Source: Acetobacteroides hydrogenigenes (GTDB lineage: Bacteria; Bacteroidota; Bacteroidia; Bacteroidales; ZOR0009). Taken from it: 64,000 nucleotides of DNA. The notes beneath the pieces are model-generated. The model was not told the DNA's origin and searched no databases. It saw only the letters and a list, made by a program, of their open reading frames with translations. The stretch lies in contig NZ_SLWB01000006.1 in NCBI RefSeq assembly GCF_004340205.1, positions 124,001-188,000 on the forward strand, in the 5' to 3' direction. A program made the position numbers and the translations under genes. This document shows positions 24,790 to 38,656 of this stretch, one piece after another; the stretch's first letter is position 1; each line of letters opens with the position of its first letter.

Positions 24790-25551
24790 TTACCTATCCT
24801 CAATACCCAACATATCCATCAGCCCGTTGATAAAGGTAAGCGGATGGGCGGGGTTGCCGGGCACGTACAGGTCGATGTGGTGAGCCTCAACAAACGAGCG
24901 ATCGAGGGCAGGACTATCGGCAAAGAGTCCTCCGCTGATGGCATCGGAACCTACGAGCACCACCACCTTTGGGTCGGGCGTGGCATCGAAGCACACCTGA
25001 AGGGCTTGCGCCATATTCGCCGAGATAGGACCTGTTATCACCACCCCATCGACATGGCGAGGCGAGGCTACGAACTCGATACCGAAGCGCCCCATGTCGA
25101 AGTTGACGTTTCCGGCAGCGTTTAGCTCCATCTCGCCCGAGTTTTCTCCCGCAGCCGACACCTCGCGTAGCTTAAGAGAATTCCTTAAAGTCTTACGTAT
25201 TTCGGGACGAATGGCAGACTCGTCCAATCTGATAGGCTTATCCTCCCCTGCCCTCACGATTAAGTCCTCGCGACGGTTGGCGGCAATCCTAAAGTCGTTG
25301 GTAAACTGAATGGCCGTTGGGAAGGCAAACTCGCACTCGCGACAGAAGACGCATTTGCCCAAATCGATGGATAGCGGCGACGATCCGATGGCTTTTGAAG
25401 GGCACATGGACACCAGCGCATCCACATCGGCTTGTGGTACCTCGAGGTTAACTACAGGACGGCCCCTGAAAAGCGGGGTAAGCGTTGCGCCACGTAAATC
25501 TTTTACGTACTGGATTCCGTGGTCGCGGAGTATTTTTAGTTCGTCGAGCAT
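24790..25551 (-). CDS. Ferredoxin/NuoB-like small-subunit fusion of an Ehr-type complex, without NuoB cluster ligands
   Basis: Homologue of the hydrogenase-4 small subunit (HyfI/HycG, NuoB fold) with an N-terminal ferredoxin-like part, 253 residues from the ATG at 25551. The ferredoxin part keeps C50 (in MCPSKAI) and C67, C70, C73 (in GKCVFCREC). The other three-cysteine motif is absent and F77 replaces its partner. This is exactly one full [4Fe-4S] ligand set of a normal two-cluster ferredoxin. In the NuoB-like part the four ligands of the proximal cluster are replaced: N148, F151, D203 and N233 (PGNPAHP). The fold context RFGIEFVASPRHVDGVVITGP is intact, and the frame is open. A 223-base repeat mosaic separates it from its partner. 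This is a subunit of a complex that cannot be a normal [NiFe] hydrogenase. Confidence 0.82.
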   Translation of the reverse strand: MLDELKILRDHGIQYVKDLRGATLTPLFRGRPVVNLEVPQADVDALVSMCPSKAIGSSPLSIDLGKCVFCRECEFAFPTAIQFTNDFRIAANRREDLIVRAGEDKPIRLDESAIRPEIRKTLRNSLKLREVSAAGENSGEMELNAAGNVNFDMGRFGIEFVASPRHVDGVVITGPISANMAQALQVCFDATPDPKVVVLVGSDAISGGLFADSPALDRSFVEAHHIDLYVPGNPAHPLTFINGLMDMLGIEDR

Positions 25552-25774
25552 TCTAAAATAGATTTTAGATATTTCATCAAGACACAAGACATAAGATACA
25601 AGACGCAAGACGCGAGTATCACGACTAAGCAGTAAGGGTTCTTAAACTTCTACTCTTTGTGTTTCTCTGTGCACACCTTCGTGGCCTTTGTGGTTAAATT
25701 AAATCAGCGTAAATCAGTGTTATCAGTAAAATCAGTGTTCTTATTTTTCTTCTAAGGACGCAAGCCTTGCGTCC
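25552..25774. repeat. Repeat mosaic inserted within the hydrogenase-like operon
   Basis: The spacer is built of short repeats: ACAAGACATAAGATACAAGACGCAAGACG-like tracts near 25580-25615, a CTTTGTGTTTCTCTGTG/CCTTTGTGG tract near 25665-25695, AAATCAGCGTAAATCAGTG/AAATCAGTG units near 25703-25738, and a 9-bp hairpin GGACGCAAG/CTTGCGTCC at 25756-25774. The hairpin touches the stop codon of the large-subunit gene. All other gaps in the operon are four bases or fewer. Confidence 0.7.
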
Positions 25775-27286
25775 CTACAAGTCATTCCCGCAGTACGAGA
25801 GGTTGAAGCTCTTGTTGCAAATAGGGAAATCGGAGATCTCCTGATCGCGAACGGCTAGGGCTAGGGCAAACCAGTTATGGAACGATGGATCTTTCACCTT
25901 GTAGTGATCGATTGCTCCTTCATCGTTGGTTATTGCCACGTGACAAATCTCGCCGCGCCAGCCTTCCACCAGCGAAATGGCTAAGGTGTCGGGAGCAAAT
26001 GCTAAGCCGAAGTTGGGAGTAGCAGAGGTGGCCTGATAGTCGAGCTTATCGAGCATATCCAGCACCCTATCTATCGACTGTACCACCTCGTCGGCACGCA
26101 GCTTAGCACGAGCCATTACGTCGCCCGAATCCATGAGTATTGGTTCGTGTTCAAGGTTCCTATATGCAAGGTAAGGGTTGCTCTTTCGGGTATCGCGGTT
26201 AAGGTTGGATGTTCGGGCAGCCATTCCAACGGCACCAATTCCGCGAGCCTGCTCGGTGGTAACAATGCCAATCCCCTCGAAACGGGCAAGCACGGAAGGA
26301 AGCGAGAAGAGCCTATCGGTAAACTGCCCGTACTCGCGCTTTACCTTGGTTAGATTCTTTACAATTTCATCGCGAACATCAGCAGTAAGCGGATAACGCG
26401 TTCCGGCAGGACGAATAATGCCTTTACCAAAACGGTTGCCGCACCAGAACTGCGTAGTATTTATCATTACTGTTCGCAAAGCCTCGCAAACTACCTGTCC
26501 GAGCTGATAGGCTACGTCGCCACAAAGAGCAGCGGTATCGCCAATATGAACGGCAACACGCTCCATCTCCTGAGCAATCACTCGCTCCTGGGCAAGACGC
26601 TCGTCAACCTCAACACCAGAAAGCGCTTCGGTAACGAGGGCAAAGCCAAGGCCATGCGACACGGCGCTATCGCCCGCAATATTTTCTGAAAGAATTGTCT
26701 TTTTAAGAAGCGAAGAATCGTCGGCCATTAGGGTTTCCACCCCACGATGCTGGTAGCCCAGCTGAATTTCGAGATGCAGCACCTTTTCGCCATTGCAGAT
26801 AAAGCGGAAGTGCCCCGGCTCGATAACCCCGGCATGAATTGGGCCAACGCCCACCTCGTGCAGCTCCGTTCCATCAATCCTATAAAACGGATAGGAGTCC
26901 ATCCAATCCGAATACGAACGGTTGTAGGGGTAGCGAACAGGCTTAAGCCAGGGATGCCCTTCGAAGGTTACCCCAAAATTTTCGGCAATCTCGCGCTCGT
27001 AGATGTGCATTGCAGGAATCTTCGCCGTTAGAGAAGGTAACGTTGCACGCTCGTTGCACCTATATCCGTATATTATGATATCGCCAGCGCCATCCGAAAG
27101 AACGATGAAGCAGGTTAACGCCCCATTGTCGGGCTTGGCGAAGTAGCTAACGCAACGGCAATCGGGATTATGAAGGATATGGATAGCTTGCTCGAAGAAT
27201 AGATCATACTCCAGCATTGGGATATCGGCAAGCTTTACAGTTGCCGGATTTCCTTTTATCCTAACGTACTGATGATACTGGTTCAT
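25775..27286 (-). CDS. Large subunit (NuoC-NuoD/HyfG-like) of an Ehr-type complex, without NiFe ligands
   Basis: Homologue of the hydrogenase-4 and formate hydrogenlyase large subunit, 503 residues. An N-terminal NuoC-like domain (about 1-135, MHIYEREIAENFGV) is fused to a NuoD-like domain (GPIHAGVIEPGHFRF, LQLGYQHRGVE-type stretch at 175-185). In [NiFe] enzymes CGxC and CxxC motifs hold the metal. Here the first is A204-G-D-S207 and the second, at the C-terminus, has S497 and G500, with a cysteine at 499 out of register. No NiFe site can form. The C-terminus KSFNLSYCGNDL keeps the family shape. The other subunits are intact, so this looks like an energy-converting hydrogenase-related (Ehr) complex. 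Confidence 0.86.
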   Translation of the reverse strand: MNQYHQYVRIKGNPATVKLADIPMLEYDLFFEQAIHILHNPDCRCVSYFAKPDNGALTCFIVLSDGAGDIIIYGYRCNERATLPSLTAKIPAMHIYEREIAENFGVTFEGHPWLKPVRYPYNRSYSDWMDSYPFYRIDGTELHEVGVGPIHAGVIEPGHFRFICNGEKVLHLEIQLGYQHRGVETLMADDSSLLKKTILSENIAGDSAVSHGLGFALVTEALSGVEVDERLAQERVIAQEMERVAVHIGDTAALCGDVAYQLGQVVCEALRTVMINTTQFWCGNRFGKGIIRPAGTRYPLTADVRDEIVKNLTKVKREYGQFTDRLFSLPSVLARFEGIGIVTTEQARGIGAVGMAARTSNLNRDTRKSNPYLAYRNLEHEPILMDSGDVMARAKLRADEVVQSIDRVLDMLDKLDYQATSATPNFGLAFAPDTLAISLVEGWRGEICHVAITNDEGAIDHYKVKDPSFHNWFALALAVRDQEISDFPICNKSFNLSYCGNDL

Positions 27287-27289
27287 GTA

Positions 27290-28690
27290 CTACTTTATTG
27301 CTTCGTTAATAAGGTTCATCACAAATCCATCTTTAAAAAAGAAGACGTAGAAGGCTAATCCTATAAGGAGGTATTGAACAGCCGTAAGCGACATCGAGAG
27401 CTTAAATCCGGTTGGCTTTACCGTTTCTTTAGCGTACAGGATGGATAGCAACTTTTGTACAATGGCGTATACGCAGCATAGCAGCACCAGCACAAGAACC
27501 GTGAAAAGAATCCAACGCTCCTGCGCCAGCATGGCTTTAAATATCGTCAGCTCCGAAACGAACAAGCCGGATGGAGGAAACGCAACAATGCCAAGCGTTC
27601 CGAGCATTAGCACCAGCGCTCCGGCCGAATAGTGCCTTATGTAGCCGCCCATCTTAGAGATTTCGTAGGTATCGAAGGTGTTGCGCACCTGACGAACCTG
27701 AAAGAAGAGCGCCGCTTTAAGGAAGGTGTGGGCAATGATATGGATAAATGCAGCGTAACGGGCAACGCCTCCAATCCCGAGGGCAATGGCAACCAATCCC
27801 ATGTTCTCGAGGGTAGAGTAGGCCAGCAGACGCTTCAGGTTGTTCGATTTAAGCAGGTAGGTTGCCGCAACTATCACCGAAAGAATCCCAGAAAGTATTA
27901 GCACATTCGAAGCCCACTGCCCAACGATGGTTCCATCGAGGATGTTTAGCAAACGGTAGATTGCCACAAAGCCACCGTTCACCATCAGAGTAGACATAAC
28001 GGCAGAGATTGGAGGCGGCGCAATGGTGTTTGCATCGATACCCACCGTATGCATGGGGAAGAGCTCCATCTTGGTGCTGAATCCAACCAGCACAAAAAGA
28101 AAGGCAATTCGCAGATAGGCTGGATTGGCGTTTGCAGCCAACACTTCAAGACCTTTATACGATAGAGGAATATCACCGCTATTAGAAACGATGGTTCCTA
28201 GGAAAAGGATTCCCATATAGGCCAGCGCAATACCAATGGAGCTAACAAAGATATACTTCCAGGTAGCTTCCAGCGCATGCGTGCTGCGGTGATGGTATAT
28301 GAGCACCGATACAGTAAGCGTGGTGGCCTCCATAAAAACCCACAGCACGATAAGGTTATTGGATAGGTAAACGCCCACAAGCGAGGTAAGCAGACCTGTA
28401 AGCCCCGCAATGTATAGAGGAATTCCTCGTTTAGACTCGTGTGTCAAATAGTAAAAGCTATGAATGAAGGCTGGAATAGCAACCACCACCATCAACGAAA
28501 GCATTATAACGGCAGTACCATCGAAGGTAAAGTACACCAGCTCGGTTTGCCCCTTGCTTGCATAGGCTCGCACCAAAAGCGCAATAAGGTTGACAATAAA
28601 TAAACCCGAAAGCACCTTACTCGCTAAAGGATTTCGGAGAGAGAGCATCAGCCCAACTAAAACAACAGATATGATAAAAAAGTACAGCAT
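27290..28690 (-). CDS. Antiporter-like membrane subunit (HyfF/NuoN-like)
   Basis: One of two proton or sodium-translocating subunits of the complex. From the ATG at 28690 it is 466 residues. An upstream in-frame codon at 28726 would overlap the preceding gene. About 13-14 hydrophobic helices are visible. Family features are the NLIVLWVFMEATTL segment with a buried Glu, the discontinuous-helix region and LLAYSTLENMGLVAIALGIG with a lysine/serine channel motif. Four bases separate it from the HyfE-like gene, and three from the large subunit. Confidence 0.88.
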   Translation of the reverse strand: MLYFFIISVVLVGLMLSLRNPLASKVLSGLFIVNLIALLVRAYASKGQTELVYFTFDGTAVIMLSLMVVVAIPAFIHSFYYLTHESKRGIPLYIAGLTGLLTSLVGVYLSNNLIVLWVFMEATTLTVSVLIYHHRSTHALEATWKYIFVSSIGIALAYMGILFLGTIVSNSGDIPLSYKGLEVLAANANPAYLRIAFLFVLVGFSTKMELFPMHTVGIDANTIAPPPISAVMSTLMVNGGFVAIYRLLNILDGTIVGQWASNVLILSGILSVIVAATYLLKSNNLKRLLAYSTLENMGLVAIALGIGGVARYAAFIHIIAHTFLKAALFFQVRQVRNTFDTYEISKMGGYIRHYSAGALVLMLGTLGIVAFPPSGLFVSELTIFKAMLAQERWILFTVLVLVLLCCVYAIVQKLLSILYAKETVKPTGFKLSMSLTAVQYLLIGLAFYVFFFKDGFVMNLINEAIK

Positions 28691-28694
28691 CCCC

Positions 28695-29327
28695 CTAATC
28701 CTTAAGTGATGATAAATCCTCCACATCGGGGTCGTTCAACCGTTTCCCGATACGCGAAGCAAAAACGCCCAAAATTAAAACGCTGGCAAAAAGGTCGAGT
28801 AGGATACCTACGTTAACCAAGAACGGCATCTCGGAACCAACGGCCAACGAGAACATGAAAACGCCGTTCTCCAGCACAAGAAATCCCACCAAATGAGGGA
28901 ATATCTTCTTATGGGTAATTACAAGAATCAACCCTGTGAAAACCGAAAAGAGCGCGGTAATCATAAATATCTTTTCGATGTTGCCGATCTTAAGCATATC
29001 GCCCAGAACCACGCTAACGCCCATTGCCACCAGCACAAGCAGCAACGAGTAGAAGGCAGGAACGGCCTTGGCATGCACCTTAGCAACCTTCATCTTTTTA
29101 ACGATATTCCTCAGCAGCACCGGAACAGCAATTGCCTTGAAGATGAGGGTTTCTGCGACAACAAATATCAGCGAAGCGAGGTCGTTGGCCCCCGAGAGCT
29201 CGGAGAAGGCCAAGAAGAACAGAAGCACCCCCTGCAATGCAACCAGCTTGAGGTAGGTTGCAAACCGCTCGGCAATGGAGATGTACATTAGCGTTACGCC
29301 AAAAAGTACGATAATAGCGAGATTCAT
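28695..29327 (-). CDS. HyfE-like membrane subunit (NuoK-like)
   Basis: Small membrane subunit of the hydrogenase-4-like complex, 210 residues, close to HyfE (about 216). Hydrophobic helices cover most of the chain, with a charged loop NIVKKMKVAKVHAKA near residues 75-90 and a conserved Glu in FLVLENGVFMFSLAVG that corresponds to the NuoK channel Glu. It lies four bases from each neighbouring gene or less. Confidence 0.85.
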   Translation of the reverse strand: MNLAIIVLFGVTLMYISIAERFATYLKLVALQGVLLFFLAFSELSGANDLASLIFVVAETLIFKAIAVPVLLRNIVKKMKVAKVHAKAVPAFYSLLLVLVAMGVSVVLGDMLKIGNIEKIFMITALFSVFTGLILVITHKKIFPHLVGFLVLENGVFMFSLAVGSEMPFLVNVGILLDLFASVLILGVFASRIGKRLNDPDVEDLSSLKD

Positions 29328-29330
29328 ACG

Positions 29331-30239
29331 TTAAGCTATTTTTTGCATTAGAATAAGAGCCACAATCAGGCCAAGCAGGCCAATGGCGGTAAGCGTAAGC
29401 AGGTATTGAGGGTTTTTCGCCATCTTGTTACGCGCCCTAAACGATTCGAGCAGCCCGACAACAACGGCAAACCCAACAGCGATCACCCCGAAGTAGAGGA
29501 ACTGGTAGCCAATTTTCCACGATGGAGGAATAAGCATATTGGCCATGAGCATGGAGAATACGCCAAACTTTAGCGACGAGGTAAGATGAATCAGCCCTAA
29601 GTCAAATCCAGAGTTGTCGAGAATCATAACCTCGTGCACCATGGTAAGCTCTAGGTGCGTTTTTGGGTCATCGACAGGAAGTCGGCTATTCTCGACCATG
29701 GCAATAAGGATTACGAGGCAGGCAAATAGAGCGCCCAGCAGCAACGAGTAGTCGCCAACGGTGTTAAACGCCTTGAAGATCTCGGTAAACGAGGTGCACC
29801 CTGTCATCATGGCCATAACGCCCATCATAACGAACAGGGCCGGTTCGACGAGCAGCGCGTAGAGCGTCTCGCGGTTGGCTCCCATCCCCTCGAAGCTGCT
29901 GCCCGTATCGAGCGCGGCAATAATCATAAGAAAACGACCCAACGCAAGCAGGTAGGCGAAGAAGACAAAATCGCCGTTAAAAGAAATCAGGGCATTGCCA
30001 CCCGCAAACGGGATAACCAGCATTGCAGTAAGCACGCAGGCAAGGCCTACAGTAGGTGCGATACGAAAGATCGAACTTGTGGTAGTGCTGTAAACGCTAC
30101 CCTTTCGTAGCAGCTTCACGATGTCGCGCACAGGCTGAATAATACGTGGCCCTTTACGCCCCGAGGCAATGCTTTTGGTTCGAGCAATGATCCCTGGAAA
30201 GAAGAATGCCGCGAGTATAATAAGTAGGTATCCGGTCAT
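29331..30239 (-). CDS. HyfC/NuoH-like membrane subunit
   Basis: Subunit that joins the peripheral arm to the membrane arm, 302 residues with about 8 helices. The NuoH family loop is present: SGRKGPRIIQPVRDIVKLLRKG near residue 30, then MVENSRLPVDDPKTHLELTMVHE near residue 190 with conserved acidic residues. In complex I these loops line the quinone cavity. It lies one base from the HyfB-like gene. Confidence 0.9.
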   Translation of the reverse strand: MTGYLLIILAAFFFPGIIARTKSIASGRKGPRIIQPVRDIVKLLRKGSVYSTTTSSIFRIAPTVGLACVLTAMLVIPFAGGNALISFNGDFVFFAYLLALGRFLMIIAALDTGSSFEGMGANRETLYALLVEPALFVMMGVMAMMTGCTSFTEIFKAFNTVGDYSLLLGALFACLVILIAMVENSRLPVDDPKTHLELTMVHEVMILDNSGFDLGLIHLTSSLKFGVFSMLMANMLIPPSWKIGYQFLYFGVIAVGFAVVVGLLESFRARNKMAKNPQYLLTLTAIGLLGLIVALILMQKIA

Positions 30240-30240
30240 A

Positions 30241-32208
30241 CTAAATCAGCTTAAAGTAGGTTAGCACCAAAATGGCAACAATAAACAGCAACGCGTAGAG
30301 CACGTAGTGCTGCACATGCCCGGTTTGAAGGATGGCGGCCTTACGGATGATCTTCAGGAGCCTGTTGGTTGGATGCACCGTAACCATTTCCTCGAAAACG
30401 TCGTTGCTTCCGGTCTTAAAGCTGGTTGCATGAGGGAAGAAATCGGTCTTCTCGAGCGGCTCAAAATCTTTCGTAACCTTCACCAACGGCTTAGATATGG
30501 AGATCAAGCTATCGGCATACGAGGTAGAGGTATACTGCTGCGTAGCATTAACGGCAGAGTAGCCGCATCCCCAGGTTGGTCCTTCAGTAATTATAACATC
30601 CTGCTGCATCTTTTTGCGGAAGAAAAATATCACCGCAATAAAACCTACAAACGCCAACGATATCCAGGTGATGCTGCTGGTTGTATTTAGTATAGGCTGC
30701 AAAAGTTCGGTCGAAGTATTTACCTGTGGGAACTGGGCAACAACCGGAAGTATTAGCTTAACGGCAATGGATGGGAACAAACCTATTGCTAGTATTCCTG
30801 CAAGAAGAACGTACTGAGGAACGAGCATCCATCTACTTACCTCTTTAACATGGTCTATCGGCTTACGGGGAGCGCCCAAGAATGCAATGCCCACCGCCTT
30901 TGAGAAGGCAAACACGGCCAATCCGCCAATCAACGCCAGAATCATCGAAGAGGTGATGAGCAAGATGGTTTCGCGGAGCGACTGCCCCACCAAGCTGTCG
31001 AACATCCCTACATATATAAGTAGCTCCGATATGAAGCCGTTAAACGGAGGAAGCGCACAGATGGCCATTGCGCCAACAATAAAGAGAAGCGAAGTGTGCG
31101 GCATCTTCTTGATAAGTCCGCCTAAATCGTTCATGTTACGCGTATGGGTTGCCGTGTACACCGAACCTGCCCCCATAAACAGCATGGGCTTAAACAGCGA
31201 GTGGTTTACGATATGCAGTACGGCTCCTGCAAAGGCCAAAAGCGATAGCTGAGGGTACTGAATATGAAGACCGATGAAACCTAAGCCAAGCCCAATTCCA
31301 ATGATACCGATGTTCTCGATACTGCTATAGGCAAGCACCTTCTTCAAATCCTTTTGTACGATGGCGCTTACTACCCCCCAAACTCCGGTAAGAAGGGATA
31401 CCGCAAGCAAGATCATTCCTACCTCTAAATATTGGCTGTGCATTGCAAAAAGAACACGAAGCAATCCGTAAATCCCCATCTTTATCATAATGCCCGACAT
31501 GGCGCCCGAAACGTGCGAGGGTGCCGCAGGGTGGGCGTTCGGAAGCCAGGTGTGCAGCGGCACAAAGCCTGCCTTAAGCCCAAATCCTAAAAAGAAAAGA
31601 AGGAATACGGGAATACCATTATTGGTAGCAAAGTAGGACGATAGGCCATCGAAACCAAAGATTCCGGTTTTTACGTAGGCAACCACAAATCCGGCAAGGA
31701 TAAGGAAGAAGCCAACGTGCATCTGAATAAGGTACGATATTCCAACCTTAAACGTTTCGTGCTTCTCGGCCTCGAACATCACCAGAACGAATGAAGCCAA
31801 TGTCATGGCCTCCCACGCTGCCAGAAAAGCAAAGCCTTCGCGAAGCGTTACCACCAGTATCATGGACACCTGCAGCCAAACCAGCGCAGCACCATGAATG
31901 GCCAGCTCACTCCTATTCTTCTTTTCCATATAAGGGGCGAGATACCCCTTAGAGTATACCGTTGTGAGCACACAAACGAGGTTAATAGCAGCAATAAAAA
32001 GGAATGATAATGGATCGATAGCAACAGAGCTACTCCCATTATTAACCAACCCTGTGTCAAAAAGACCTAATGCGCCTACCGCTGTAACAACGGTATAAAA
32101 TGCCACTACCAGTTGGGTAAATAATACTACGGCAAATTGTCGTTTTTTAGATAGAAAGAAACTGAGTAGTGGCAGAAACGCAGCTGAAATGAGAAAAGAG
32201 ATATTCAT
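30241..32208 (-). CDS. HyfB/NuoL-like antiporter subunit
   Basis: Largest membrane subunit and first gene of the operon, 655 residues from the ATG at 32208. A start at 32238 is rejected because it lies in the -7 box. The antiporter domain has AFLAAWEAMTLASFVL with a buried Glu, GLKAGFVPLHTWLPNAHPAAPSHVSG, and KVLAYSSIENIGIIG. The C-terminal third adds further helices and a polar segment with TWGCGY. Such subunits carry ions across the membrane when the peripheral arm drives them. Confidence 0.9.
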   Translation of the reverse strand: MNISFLISAAFLPLLSFFLSKKRQFAVVLFTQLVVAFYTVVTAVGALGLFDTGLVNNGSSSVAIDPLSFLFIAAINLVCVLTTVYSKGYLAPYMEKKNRSELAIHGAALVWLQVSMILVVTLREGFAFLAAWEAMTLASFVLVMFEAEKHETFKVGISYLIQMHVGFFLILAGFVVAYVKTGIFGFDGLSSYFATNNGIPVFLLFFLGFGLKAGFVPLHTWLPNAHPAAPSHVSGAMSGIMIKMGIYGLLRVLFAMHSQYLEVGMILLAVSLLTGVWGVVSAIVQKDLKKVLAYSSIENIGIIGIGLGLGFIGLHIQYPQLSLLAFAGAVLHIVNHSLFKPMLFMGAGSVYTATHTRNMNDLGGLIKKMPHTSLLFIVGAMAICALPPFNGFISELLIYVGMFDSLVGQSLRETILLITSSMILALIGGLAVFAFSKAVGIAFLGAPRKPIDHVKEVSRWMLVPQYVLLAGILAIGLFPSIAVKLILPVVAQFPQVNTSTELLQPILNTTSSITWISLAFVGFIAVIFFFRKKMQQDVIITEGPTWGCGYSAVNATQQYTSTSYADSLISISKPLVKVTKDFEPLEKTDFFPHATSFKTGSNDVFEEMVTVHPTNRLLKIIRKAAILQTGHVQHYVLYALLFIVAILVLTYFKLI

Positions 32209-32235
32209 CAGATGTTTTCTGTCGAAGTAATGCCG

Positions 32236-32243
32236 CAAAGGTA
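32236..32243 (-). promoter_or_regulatory. Bacteroidota -7 box for the hydrogenase-like operon
   Basis: TACCTTTG on the minus strand matches TAnnTTTG and lies 27 bases before the ATG at 32208. It sets the start of the HyfB-like gene. Confidence 0.6.
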
Positions 32244-33012: not shown

Positions 33013-35196
33013 ATGTTAAGTATTTATTTTTGGATAGTTCCGGCATGCGCAGCAGTCGCATTACTATTCGCCTACATCTTCTTCAAGGGAATGATGAAGG
33101 AGTCAGAGGGCACAGAGACAATGGCTCGCATAGCCAGCCACGTTCGAAAGGGAGCAATGGCCTACCTTAGGCAACAGTACAAGGTAGTAGGAATCGTATT
33201 TATTGTGCTCTGCGCACTGTTTGCCTATATGGCCTATGGGCCAGGCTTGCAGAATAAGTGGGTTTGGTTTGCCTTCCTTACCGGCGGCTTCTTCTCGGGG
33301 CTTGCAGGTTTTATTGGGATGAAGACCGCCACCTACGCATCTGCTCGTACTGCAAATGCTGCCCGCCGCAGCCTCAACGATGGTCTTAAAATCGCCTTCC
33401 GTTCGGGAGCAGTTATGGGATTGGTGGTAGTTGGCCTAGCCCTTCTCGACATCTCGCTTTGGTGGATTCTTCTCGACTACTTTGTAGAAGAGGCAACATC
33501 CTCCGAAAAGGTTGTCGTAATTACAACCACCATGCTTACCTTCGGTATGGGTGCCTCTACTCAGGCGCTATTTGCAAGAGTTGGTGGTGGTATCTTTACC
33601 AAGGCTGCCGACGTTGGCGCCGACCTAGTAGGTAAAGTAGAAGCAGGCATTCCTGAAGATGACCCCCGCAACCCTGCCACTATTGCCGACAACGTGGGCG
33701 ATAATGTGGGCGACGTTGCCGGTATGGGTGCCGACCTTTACGAGTCGTACTGCGGATCGATTTTGGCTACTTCGGCCCTTGGTGCTGCTGCATTTGCAAC
33801 AAATCCCGAGCTGCAGTTTAACGCCATCCTTGCCCCAATGCTTATCGCCGCATTTGGCGTAGTGCTTTCGCTTATCGGAATCTTCCTTGTAAAGACCAAA
33901 GAAGGCGCATCGCAGCAGCAGCTGCTAAGCGCACTAGGAAGAGGCATCAACATCAGCTCGGTGCTAATCGTTTTTGCATCGTTCCTTACCGTATACCTGC
34001 TTGGGCTAGACTACATGATCTGCGGATCGATCATCACAGGTCTGGTTACGGGTATCATCATTGGTAAGTCTACCGAATACTACACCTCGCATGCCTACGC
34101 GCCAACCCAGGGTATCGCCATGAGCTCGAAAACCGGGCCTGCTACCGTAATCATTAAGGGTATTGGTACGGGTATGATCTCTACGGCAATTCCAGTTATT
34201 ACAATCGTAATTGGAATTATCCTATCGTTCCTTTTTGCCGCCAACTTCAGCTTCGCCAATATGTCGATGGGACTTTACGGCGTGGGTATCGCCGCTGTAG
34301 GTATGCTATCGACCTTGGGTATCACCCTTGCGACCGATGCCTACGGTCCTATTGCCGATAACGCCGGTGGAAACGCCGAAATGAGCAAGCTAGGCGAGGA
34401 AGTACGCCACCGTACCGATGCGTTGGATGCTCTTGGAAACACCACCGCTGCAACTGGAAAGGGCTTTGCTATCGGATCGGCAGCGCTTACCGGCTTGGCC
34501 CTTCTTGCCTCGTACGTCGAGGAGATCAAGATTGCCCTACTCCGTGTTGGACAAGCTACCATAGAGGTTAGCGGTCAGGTTGTGAATACGGCCGAAGCTT
34601 CGCTCACCGACTTTATGACCTACTACGATGTTACCCTGATGAACCCTAAGGTACTTGCAGGCGTATTCATTGGCTCGATGATGGCCTTCCTATTCTGCGG
34701 ATTAACCATGAACGCCGTAGGCCGTGCCGCTCAAAAGATGGTGAACGAAGTACGCCGCCAGTTCCGCGAAATCGCCGGCATTATGGAAGGAAAAGCCGAG
34801 CCAGACTACGCTAAATGCGTGGAGATCTCTACCCGTGGTGCTCAGCGCGAAATGATGTTCCCTTCGCTACTTGCCATCGTTACCCCTATCGTTACCGGAA
34901 TTATCTTCGGCGTTTCGGGCGTAATGGGACTTCTTGTTGGTGGATTAGGTTCTGGCTTTGTGCTTGCCGTATTCATGGCCAACGCTGGTGGTGCCTGGGA
35001 TAACGCCAAGAAGTACATCGAGGAAGGAAACCTAGATGGAAAGGGATCGAACAACCACAAGGCTACCGTTATTGGCGACACCGTGGGCGATCCATTTAAG
35101 GATACCTCTGGCCCTAGCCTCAACATCCTTATCAAGCTAATGAGCATGGTAGCCATCGTTATGGCTGGACTAACCGTTGCCTACAGCTTATTGTAA
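33013..35196 (+). CDS. hppA: Membrane-bound ion-pumping pyrophosphatase
   Basis: Hydrolyses pyrophosphate and pumps H+ and/or Na+ out. The 727-residue protein has about 16 helices. The substrate site contains [39 protein letters not shown] with its Asp/Asn cluster, and [15 protein letters not shown] near the C-terminus. [10 protein letters not shown] has Ala rather than Lys at the position linked to potassium dependence, so a K+-dependent enzyme is likely. DLYESY suggests the Na+-pumping branch; this is an inference that needs phylogeny. It has its own terminator and probably reclaims PPi made by biosynthesis or by pyruvate phosphate dikinase. Confidence 0.95.
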
Positions 35197-35824: not shown

Positions 35825-38656
35825 TTACTGCTTTATTGGTTTAGTCACCCGATCCACCAGGTAAACGATGGACATGTAGGGAATCTTTCCGTTGGTGGTT
35901 AGCCCAATCTCGCAGGTACGGCTGTTGGAGAAGCCCTGCCTAACGTTTGCCGTCTCCAGCTGTGGGCGCAGCTTGCGCAAGGCATAGGCGTTAACCTCGG
36001 GGTTGGTAAATCCCTTATCGCCGGCAAAGCCGCAGCAGCCCACCTCTTGAGGAACGAGCACATTTGTAGAACAGCGCTTCGCCAATCCAATAATGGTGTC
36101 GCGCAGCTGCATTTTTGTAGTCGAGCAGGTTATATGAAGCGCCACAGGCTCGTCGATGGGCGTAAACTCTAGCTTATCCACCAAGAATGCCTCTATAAAC
36201 TCGGCAGGCTCGTAAAGCTTCATAGACTTTATGCAGGTACGCATACGGTACAGGCAGGGGCTTTGATCGCATAGCACAGGGTATTCCCCGTTGTTGCTGG
36301 CCTTCCAGAGCGCCTCCTCCAGCTGCTTAGTCTTACGATCGGCAATATCGGGCATGCCCTTGCTTTCCCAGATGGTACCGCAGCAAAGCTGCTCCATATT
36401 TTCGGGGAAGATAACCTCGTAGCCGGCTTTATGAAGCAACCCCATCATCTTATCGGGCAGCGGCGTTTGATCCGGATCACCCTTTGCTGCGCCCATCGTC
36501 TGGTTGATACAGCTAGGGAAGTACACCACCTTTAATGCAGATGACTTTTGCACTACAGGTTTTACCTTATTGCTTTTGGGCATCGATGGAGTCCAAAGCG
36601 GAATCCCCGTTGTCTTATGCAGCGTACGGGTTACAGCCCCCAATGCGGCCGATCCCATAACGGTATGGGCCATGTTGGCTGCAGAAAGAACCGGACGTAG
36701 GGTAGACTTAATCCCAGCAAAATGGTTGGCCGCAAAGTTGCCCACCTTCCAGGCAAAGCTCCCCTGAGGGATGTTGGCCTGGCGAACATCGTGGGTAAGG
36801 TGCGCCGTGTTGATGCCCATTGGGCAGCTGGTGGCGCAGAGGCCATCGCCGGCGCAGGTAGCATCGCCAAGGTAGGCGTATTCTTTTCGCAGGTCGGTTA
36901 AAAGAGCGGCATCTTCGCCGCTAGCCTCAAGTCGGGCTATTTCGCGCTGCACAATAATTCGCTGGCGCGAGGATAGCGTTAAACCATAGGTTAGGCAGTT
37001 AACCTCGCAAAAGCCACATTCGATGCATTTATCAACATGAGGGTTGGTTAACGACAGCTCTTTTAGATTCTTGATATGGCAGTGCGGATCGTCGTTAAAG
37101 ATAACGCCCGGATTAAGGATGCCCCGTGGGTCGAACAGCACCTTAATACGCTTCATGATGGAGAACGCCTCAGCGCCCCACTCGTACTCTACAAATGGAG
37201 CCATGTTGCGGCCCGTTCCATGCTCGGCCTTCAGCGAGCCCTTGTACTTATCCACTACCAGGTGGATAACATCGTTCATCAGGGCCTCGTAGCGGTCAAT
37301 TTCGCTTTGGCTGTCGAAGCTTTGGTTGATGATGAAGTGGTAGTTACCCTCCAGCGCATGCCCGTAGATAACGCCATCGGCATACCCATGCTTAGCAATG
37401 GTTTGCTGTAGCTCGGCAGTTGCCTCCGGAAGGTTATCCATATGGAAGGCAACATCCTCGATAAGGCACGATGTACCTACAGGACGCATTGCGCCTACCG
37501 AAGGGAAGATGCCAGAGCGAATAGCCCAAAGCTTGCTGTACTCCTTCTCATCATCAAGGAACTCGACGGGCATCAAAATCTTATAGCTCTCGATGATTCC
37601 CTTAATCAGGGCAACATTCTCCGCCAGCTCGTGCTGCGATTCGGCCTTTGTCTCAAAGAGAACCGCAGTAGCAGAATCGGGAAGCGTTTTAAGAAAATCG
37701 GGCATTCCCGGCTTATCCTCAACCGATTTTAGCGCCAACCTATCGAGCAGCTCAGCACCAATAACAGGCTCCGTCTTCAATCGCTGAATAGCTAAGCAGG
37801 CCTCCCGTATGCCATCGAAGTATACCATAGCGCTTGCCCGGAATGGAGCAAGAGGCTCGGTAGTAACGGTAGCCTCCTCCAAAAACGCCAGCGTTCCCTC
37901 CGACCCTACCATTAGGTGGGTGATGATGTCGAACGGATCGCTATGCTCTATAAGCGGAAGGATATTCAGTCCAGTAACATTCTTGATCGAATACTTATAG
38001 CGAATCCAACGATGCAGCTCCTCATTGGCTAAAATTTCCTTGCGCAGCTCGTGCAAATCGTTGCAGAAGGTTGGATAGCGGTTGTTAAACTCTGTACGCG
38101 ATTTCTCATCGCCCGTATCTAACCTAAAGCCATCGGGCATAATCATTCGAACCGAGCGAATAACCTTATCGCTATTGGCATGCGTGCCGCAGTTCATCCC
38201 CGATGCGTTATTCATGATAATGCCCGCAAGCATGGCCGACTTAAGCGACGCCGGATCGGGCGAGAACTTACGACCTAGCGGAGCCAGAATCTCGTTAATC
38301 CGCTGGCCTACGATGCCGCACTGCAGCGTAATTTGCGAGGCATCGGGAGCAATCGAATACTTTTCCCACTTCTTACCCGCAACAACAAGAACCGAATTGG
38401 TGATACTTTGCCCCGATAGGCTTGTTCCGGCAGCCCTAAACGTAACAGGAATGTTATGCGAGGTAGCACACTTCAGGATATACGAAACCTCCTCAGGGGT
38501 TTCAGGAAAAACAACCACCTGGGGAATCTGGCGGTAGAAGCTCGCATCCGTACCCCAGGCAAGACGATCAATTGCTCTCGTGGTAATGTATCGGCGATTT
38601 ACCTTCGCCGATATCTTTTGTATAAAAGCCCTATGGGCAGCATCAATGGTCTCCAT
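35825..38656 (-). CDS. FAD-linked and Fe-S dehydrogenase (D-lactate/2-hydroxyacid dehydrogenase type)
   Basis: A 943-residue fusion that oxidises a 2-hydroxyacid, probably D-lactate or glycolate, and passes electrons to a quinone or other carrier. The N-terminal FAD domain has the PCMH motif TFRAAGTSLSGQS near residue 55 and a GlcD-like C-terminal half ending SLKAEHGTGRNMAPF. Two [4Fe-4S] motifs follow: CIECGFCEVNC near residue 540 and CAGDGLCATSCP near residue 600. Two CCG domains (CCGTIWESKG near 760 and GCCGFAGDKG near 875) complete the GlpC/LldE-like part. It stands alone. The substrate is inferred from the family only. Confidence 0.88.
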   Translation of the reverse strand: METIDAAHRAFIQKISAKVNRRYITTRAIDRLAWGTDASFYRQIPQVVVFPETPEEVSYILKCATSHNIPVTFRAAGTSLSGQSITNSVLVVAGKKWEKYSIAPDASQITLQCGIVGQRINEILAPLGRKFSPDPASLKSAMLAGIIMNNASGMNCGTHANSDKVIRSVRMIMPDGFRLDTGDEKSRTEFNNRYPTFCNDLHELRKEILANEELHRWIRYKYSIKNVTGLNILPLIEHSDPFDIITHLMVGSEGTLAFLEEATVTTEPLAPFRASAMVYFDGIREACLAIQRLKTEPVIGAELLDRLALKSVEDKPGMPDFLKTLPDSATAVLFETKAESQHELAENVALIKGIIESYKILMPVEFLDDEKEYSKLWAIRSGIFPSVGAMRPVGTSCLIEDVAFHMDNLPEATAELQQTIAKHGYADGVIYGHALEGNYHFIINQSFDSQSEIDRYEALMNDVIHLVVDKYKGSLKAEHGTGRNMAPFVEYEWGAEAFSIMKRIKVLFDPRGILNPGVIFNDDPHCHIKNLKELSLTNPHVDKCIECGFCEVNCLTYGLTLSSRQRIIVQREIARLEASGEDAALLTDLRKEYAYLGDATCAGDGLCATSCPMGINTAHLTHDVRQANIPQGSFAWKVGNFAANHFAGIKSTLRPVLSAANMAHTVMGSAALGAVTRTLHKTTGIPLWTPSMPKSNKVKPVVQKSSALKVVYFPSCINQTMGAAKGDPDQTPLPDKMMGLLHKAGYEVIFPENMEQLCCGTIWESKGMPDIADRKTKQLEEALWKASNNGEYPVLCDQSPCLYRMRTCIKSMKLYEPAEFIEAFLVDKLEFTPIDEPVALHITCSTTKMQLRDTIIGLAKRCSTNVLVPQEVGCCGFAGDKGFTNPEVNAYALRKLRPQLETANVRQGFSNSRTCEIGLTTNGKIPYMSIVYLVDRVTKPIKQ

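Follow-up and report, generated by a model that had tools for sequence, protein, structure and literature searches.

The operon described here raises the question of what a complex of the hydrogenase 4 and complex I type does when the residues that bind the metal centres of its core are missing. We analyzed a 64-kb stretch of DNA (the window) by ORF listing and Pfam/NCBIfam searches and identified six intact genes that follow one another on the minus strand (positions 24790 to 32238) in the order B-C-E-F-L-S (Table 1). The products were HyfB-, HyfC-, HyfE-, HyfF-, HyfG/NuoCD- and HyfI/NuoB-like, in agreement with the initial annotation, which had described six intact genes of these types at this place. 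E. coli hydrogenase 4 and formate hydrogenlyase (Hyf, Hyc) have the same B-C-E-F-G-I gene types in the same order; unlike them, the window has no HyfA, HyfD, HyfH or HyfJ genes, no NiFe ligands and no proximal cluster, and its genome has no HypD.

Table 1. Positions of the six genes and of the altered or retained ligand sites in the window
Feature	Position	Strand	Remark
HyfB/NuoL-like antiporter-type membrane subunit	30241..32208	-	NCBIfam hydrogenase 4 subunit B, 3.6e-148; ORF extendable to 32238
HyfC/NuoH-like membrane subunit	29331..30239	-	PF00146, 2.6e-29
HyfE-like membrane subunit	28695..29327	-	NCBIfam hydrogenase 4 membrane subunit, 5.1e-16
HyfF/NuoM-N-like antiporter-type membrane subunit	27290..28690	-	NCBIfam hydrogenase 4 subunit F, 2.1e-66; ORF extendable to 28726
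Large subunit (HyfG/HycE/NuoCD-like), without NiFe ligands	25775..27286	-	C-terminus ...NKSFNLSYCGNDL, no C-terminal extension
Small subunit: N-terminal one-cluster ferredoxin domain and NuoB/HycG-like domain	24790..25551	-	ORF extendable to 25608
Former first CxxC of large subunit, A204-G-D206-S207	26666..26677	-	Column of HycE C241/C244
Former second CxxC of large subunit, S497-Y-C-G500	25787..25798	-	Column of HycE C531/C534
Ferredoxin-domain cysteines C69, C86, C89, C92 (N6b-type [4Fe-4S] motif)	25333..25404	-	Small subunit
Former proximal-cluster ligands 1 and 2, E155 and G158	25135..25146	-	D and mostly C in relatives
Former proximal-cluster ligand 3, D222	24943..24945	-	Small-subunit alignment
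Former proximal-cluster ligand 4, N252	24853..24855	-	Small-subunit alignment

The host is a member of the Bacteroidota with a genome of 3.86 Mb, which also encodes Rnf/Nqr-family genes and a separate complex I (L001) whose NuoB keeps the N2 cysteines. HypD, needed for NiFe maturation, was found neither in this genome nor in most sampled relatives with the same operon type, indicating that no NiFe cofactor would be matured. On the upstream side of the operon lie a membrane H+-pyrophosphatase gene (33013-35196) and a large FAD/4Fe-4S/CCG fusion resembling D-lactate or glycolate dehydrogenase (35825-38656), neither of which is a conserved neighbour in related loci. Across 69 related loci no adjoining gene was conserved, and this spoke against the proposed tie to the nearby PPi pump and ruled out a recruited next-door partner enzyme such as formate dehydrogenase or PPase. 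The E, C, L and S genes themselves occurred together in nearly all long loci. In several Bacteroidota ehr operons (L078, L088, L094, L099, L103, L104, L113 and others) B and C are separated by 2 kb, in which a second HyfB-like gene may lie. The 64 kb gave no matches in Rfam and tRNA scans.

The NiFe site and the membrane arm

E. coli Hyc, Hyf and Nuo were included in alignments of 94 large subunits and 87 small subunits. The NiFe ligands of HycE, C241, C244, C531 and C534, fell on A204, S207, S497 and G500 of the window, and the earlier proposal that A204-G-D-S207 and S497-x-x-G500 replace the two NiFe-binding CxxC motifs of group 4 [NiFe] hydrogenases was thus upheld. The first motif was A at position 204 in 86/94 sequences and T or S at position 207 in 93/94, with cysteine in a single row of 94 at each of these two columns; the second was S at 497 and G at 500 in all 93. 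The large subunit as a whole carried the signature [AS]GD[ST]..H / NKSFNLSY.G.DL. Its predicted fold was nearest to HycE (7z0s_E). The subunit also matched 6u8y_L (MBS / Mbx) weakly. Residues 115-179 and 498-503, which contain core motifs, were poorly predicted when the subunit was modelled alone, and probably need the partner subunits. The quinone-site tyrosine of NuoD was not kept either; its column is Gly205, and A-G-D-S stands where E. coli NuoCD has E-Y-L-G.

In the membrane arm, the relay residues of complex I type (Glu/Lys/His in the NuoL/M/N-like and Glu/Asp in the NuoH-like subunits) were nearly invariant among the sampled homologues. In the HyfB-like subunit, E143, K222, K253, H342, H346 and K350 were conserved in 33/33 and E405 in 32/33; in the HyfF-like subunit, E133, K219 and E392 were conserved in 30/30; and R123, E132, D190, E197 and D208 of the HyfC/NuoH-like subunit were conserved in nearly all sampled members. 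The loop of the latter subunit, PVDDPKTHLELTMVHEVMILD, is of a type common to Ehr (energy-converting hydrogenase-related) complexes and is not found in E. coli HyfC/HycD, and the core-facing NuoH-like loop of Ehr relatives has the motif PVD[DN]P.THLELTM.HE instead of the hydrogenase or complex I sequence. From this conservation we infer that the membrane arm, which is very likely functional, still translocates ions. Intact relays and the predominance of membrane subunits in the operon would also fit a multisubunit cation/proton antiporter of the Mrp kind, to which L and S form only a structural cap. We regard this as very unlikely, given that the conservation of L and S equals that of the membrane subunits, that numerous residues of their pocket are invariant, and that they accompany E and C in almost all long loci.

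The proximal-cluster site and the remaining ferredoxin domain

In the alignment of 87 small subunits the ligand columns of the proximal cluster were E155, G158, D222 and N252 (numbering of the 272-aa ORF), and HMMER pairwise alignments with MbhJ and HycG independently gave the same columns. The small subunit starts at M20 (ATG). Counted from there, D222 and N252 correspond to D203 and N233, which the initial annotation had named correctly; its other two replacements, N148 and F151, lie further along the chain than the true columns, which in that numbering are 136 and 139. The loss itself is genuine. Cysteines hidden at the ligand positions were ruled out by the alignment, apart from C158, which most relatives have and the window does not.

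The four columns were filled in a specific manner. Column 155 is D in 99/101 sequences of the window's clade (E in the window), column 222 is D in 98/101 and column 252 is N in 99/101, while column 158 is C in 65/87 and A, N, T, G or S in about a quarter, the window with its G included. Two sets of relatives had C at columns 222 and 252 without exception (16/16 and 9/9), and Ehr relatives outside the clade had C at both 155 and 158. The Asp-(Cys)-Asp-Asn set is thus kept in about 98% of the window's Bacteroidota clade. When 101 cluster-less small subunits were compared with 16 cluster-bearing, ferredoxin-fused ones, only columns 155 (D versus C), 157 (S versus G), 222 (D versus C) and 252 (N versus C) separated the two at the thresholds used. 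AlphaFold2 predicted the small subunit with a mean pLDDT of 92.9, and the best Foldseek matches were HycG (7z0s_G) and MbhJ (6cfw_J), with an rmsd of 1.7 over 130 columns. The subunit therefore superposes on MbhJ of Pyrococcus Mbh (6CFW) and differs in its missing proximal ligands, as the large subunit does in the missing NiFe ligands. Taken together, the alignments demonstrated that Asp-(Cys or a small residue)-Asp-Asn now occupies the ligand positions of the former proximal (N2-equivalent) [4Fe-4S] site.

At its N-terminus the small subunit carries a fused HycF/NuoI-like ferredoxin domain of ~120 residues, not mentioned in the initial annotation. Its cysteines C69, C86, C89 and C92 were invariant in 87/87 homologues and share columns with C70, C99, C102 and C105 of NuoI, which we take to be the N6b ligands, with N6a and N6b named as in complex I. 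The N6a cysteine set is missing in the window and is absent from whole clades. The earlier statement that no obvious redox centre is left holds for the L/S core; outside it, in the small-subunit polypeptide, one redox centre is predicted to remain, the N6b-type [4Fe-4S] motif. Relative to complex I (NuoB, NuoCD, NuoH, NuoL/M/N, NuoI), with its homologous Q-module and membrane arm, the window thus keeps the N6b of NuoI and lacks N2, N6a and the quinone-site tyrosine.

The N6b cysteines were invariant in 119/119 ferredoxin-bearing members of our set, the only centre kept so universally. On this basis redox chemistry might be confined to N6b: a surface partner, reduced or oxidised by the ferredoxin domain, would drive the membrane arm, and the proximal and NiFe pockets would merely have been filled. 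Such an arrangement appears unlikely, as Ehr complexes without any ferredoxin domain carry the same L and membrane signatures and the filled positions are strictly Asp/Asp/Asn, with no drift.

Distribution, repeated loss and selection

A tblastn search located operons of the same type on plasmids of Rhizobium, Azospirillum, Bradyrhizobium, Methylovirgula, Cupriavidus, Variovorax, Rhodococcus and others. These relatives lacked NiFe ligands and shared [AS]GD[ST] and NKSFN.SY.G.DL exactly with the window; N491, K492, S493, S497, Y498, G500, D502 and L503 were invariant between the two. The large subunits of the window and of the plasmid and Bacteroidota Ehr formed one group apart from HycE/HyfG (SH-aLRT 100, in a tree that did not contain Geobacter Ehr). 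The missing NiFe ligands, the shared signature and this grouping confirm the assignment first made to Ehr, and by these features the operon is an Ehr, the class with a group-4-like subunit set and without [NiFe] ligands. The window's clade differs from the sampled cluster-bearing members in its D-(C)-D-N proximal site and the loss of N6a; proximal [4Fe-4S] ligands, which the window lacks, are not known to define the class.

Published work names such complexes Ehr and states their function as unknown. They are described from Geobacter (GSU0739-0745), Nitrospira, ammonia-oxidising archaea, Margulisbacteria and M. tuberculosis (Rv0081-87). Our sampling leans to the window's relatives, one phylum and a few plasmids, and does not contain Geobacter, Nitrospira or mycobacterial Ehr. 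In the literature searched, which did not extend to the founding Ehr descriptions, we found no statement on the clusters of Ehr small subunits; an earlier notice is possible, and relative to the literature checked the apparent replacement of the Ehr proximal cluster by Asp-(Cys)-Asp-Asn in a Bacteroidota clade is new.

An Ehr large subunit was present in 69/295 sampled genomes of the order, and no relatives were found in viral contigs. The predicted cluster content of the small subunits formed a graded series. Three clusters were retained in L136 and L139-L143 (Bacteroidota), N6b plus the proximal cluster in L137 and L138 (Bacteroidota), and N6b only in the window's Bacteroidota group; L077 kept both ferredoxin clusters and lost the proximal one. 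N6b alone was found in 102 of 129 distinct L/S pairs and in all 14 further pairs with a readable small subunit from a class-wide sample. Outside the cluster-less lineages the proximal cysteines were kept (25/25 cluster-bearing pairs, from rhizobia, Azospirillum, Rhodococcus, Variovorax and several Bacteroidota), Meiothermus silvanus being the exception among the plasmid relatives. The rhizobial type has no ferredoxin domain. A contrast in Rnf/Nqr between genomes that keep the proximal cluster and those that lack it tracked taxonomy and was set aside.

Several further arrangements were observed among the plasmids. In mostly aerobic plant and soil alphaproteobacteria (L119, L121, L122, L123, L125) the Ehr operon lies on large plasmids, has the proximal cluster only and no ferredoxin domain, and often adjoins a small HTH regulator gene. 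Plasmid 3 of Variovorax sp. PBL-E5 carries two different Ehr operons nearly side by side (L117:3935-11219 and L130:770-7954); one has a small subunit fused to a two-cluster ferredoxin domain, and the other is of the rhizobial type, without such a domain. A more divergent hydrogenase-like operon on Caballeronia/Burkholderia plasmids (L127:5777-13236, L129:5693-13109) has VSGVD and TISGCAR motifs, a two-cluster ferredoxin-fused small subunit and the NuoL-like gene last.

We count at least three losses of the proximal cluster, in the Bacteroidota clade, in L131 and in Meiothermus (L118), placed on a tree of the large subunits, which do not themselves carry the trait. Joining L131 to the Bacteroidota clade was rejected (AU p=3e-5), as was joining Meiothermus (p=0.013), ruling out one ancient loss common to the clade and either of them. 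Monophyly of the losses inside the clade was not rejected (p=0.19), and L136 and L077 were therefore not counted as extra events. L131 (539-7758 of its locus, G014 contig C386) is a single metagenome contig with an Ehr operon in the order S-B-C-E-F-L. Its proximal site is Asp-Cys-Asp-Asp, reached independently of the window's clade, in a small subunit that shares 53% identity with the rhizobial type, which bears the cluster. It has no ferredoxin domain, and its only cysteines, two in S and four dispersed through L, appear to leave neither subunit with an Fe-S motif.

Compared with the nearest, 88%-identical relative, dN/dS was 0.068/0.64 for L, 0.047/0.56 for S and 0.058/0.76 for F, indicating that the operon is under purifying selection. 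Two base changes are required to turn a Cys codon into one for Asp or Asn, whereas a single change suffices for Ser, Gly, Tyr, Phe, Arg and Trp, so the replacement at the proximal site is not simple decay; together with the convergence of L131 on DCDD, the two-step changes point to selection for the new residues. A decaying pseudo-hydrogenase operon would account for the absent metal ligands, and a study of Geobacter has termed Ehr non-functional on account of its inability to oxidise H2 (PMC13194489). For the present operon we consider decay extremely improbable: full-length frames persist in more than 100 genomes with dN/dS about 0.1, and the two-step substitutions are fixed and convergent. 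For the clade as a whole it was refuted by dN/dS, conservation and convergence. The initial annotation had likewise held that the locus is not decaying, which accords with the more than 100 homologues that share the changes and with the dN/dS ratios of about 0.08-0.11.

Possible modes of coupling

The L site and the pump have been kept while the wiring was repeatedly lost, and the most economical reading is therefore that the L/S pocket serves some purpose other than electron exchange with a proximal cluster. The operon most likely encodes a complex that works in ion translocation and in which the L/S site no longer takes part in such exchange. More specifically, we favour, at somewhat less than even confidence, a functional six-subunit Ehr complex in which the L/S pocket acts by ligand or cation binding or by non-redox chemistry coupled to the membrane arm. 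The L/S interface would form a polar, acidic pocket suited to either role. The proximal cluster, which would connect N6b with the L site, is missing in the window's clade, and judging by distances in complex I the gap left is too wide for rapid electron transfer; the remaining N6b cluster may therefore have a structural role, or may sense the redox state and gate the pump. A conformational or protonation change of the pocket would be passed to the membrane arm, by analogy with DAB2, in which the NuoL-like DabB is coupled to CO2 hydration (PMC13144422). DAB2 is a precedent for non-redox coupling through a cytoplasmic module and a likeness in working only, DabA having a carbonic-anhydrase fold unrelated to L and S.

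A non-redox pocket best explains the pattern of conservation, with the Ehr L-site residues, the HycE-type fold and the membrane relays near invariant and the wiring dispensable. It also fits the recurrent proximal losses and the clades devoid of N6a, the rhizobial type without a ferredoxin domain, the lack of a candidate Fe-S motif in S or L of L131, and the small number of columns that set cluster-less and cluster-bearing Ehr apart. The two-base changes, the DCDD convergence, the low dN/dS and the absence of HypD are consistent with it as well. The main argument against it is the invariance of N6b, which is hard to explain without an electron role. In addition, the Asp-Cys-Asp-Asn site could hold another redox metal, no conserved neighbour in the 69 loci names a substrate, the cluster-free extreme is a single contig, and the distance argument comes from general knowledge of complex I and not from a model of this complex.

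A serious rival, although rather unlikely in our estimate, is a redox pump with a replaced cofactor, in which electrons would pass from ferredoxin or flavodoxin through N6b to another metal or an organic cofactor at D155/(C158)/D222/N252 and on to an L-site substrate such as menaquinone. The retention of N6b while N6a was lost is what a shift of the donor's docking site to N6b would lead one to expect; the ligand set was replaced in a specific and conserved way; and ancestor-like, cluster-bearing forms (L117, L136, L139-L143) have the complete chain. However, residue 158 is A, N, T, G or S in about a quarter of the members, the window among them, L has not kept the quinone-site tyrosine of complex I, and L131 has a near-identical site yet no N6b whatsoever. 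Extending the non-redox reading beyond this operon, we put forward, more tentatively, that the catalytic core of a machine of the complex I superfamily has given up electron transfer for a non-redox reaction or for ion exchange gated by a ligand, its proximal pocket having been re-tooled several times independently into an acidic Asp-(Cys)-Asp-Asn/Asp site, with L131 lacking any candidate Fe-S motif in L and S.

In the accepted view, complex I and the group 4 hydrogenases use electron transfer to drive ion pumping. A widespread lineage in which pump and pocket persist while the core metal ligands are precisely replaced is a natural experiment on what coupling needs, and the ordered intermediates with three, two, one and no clusters make the function of Ehr directly testable. 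Such machines may run on something other than the usual electron chain.
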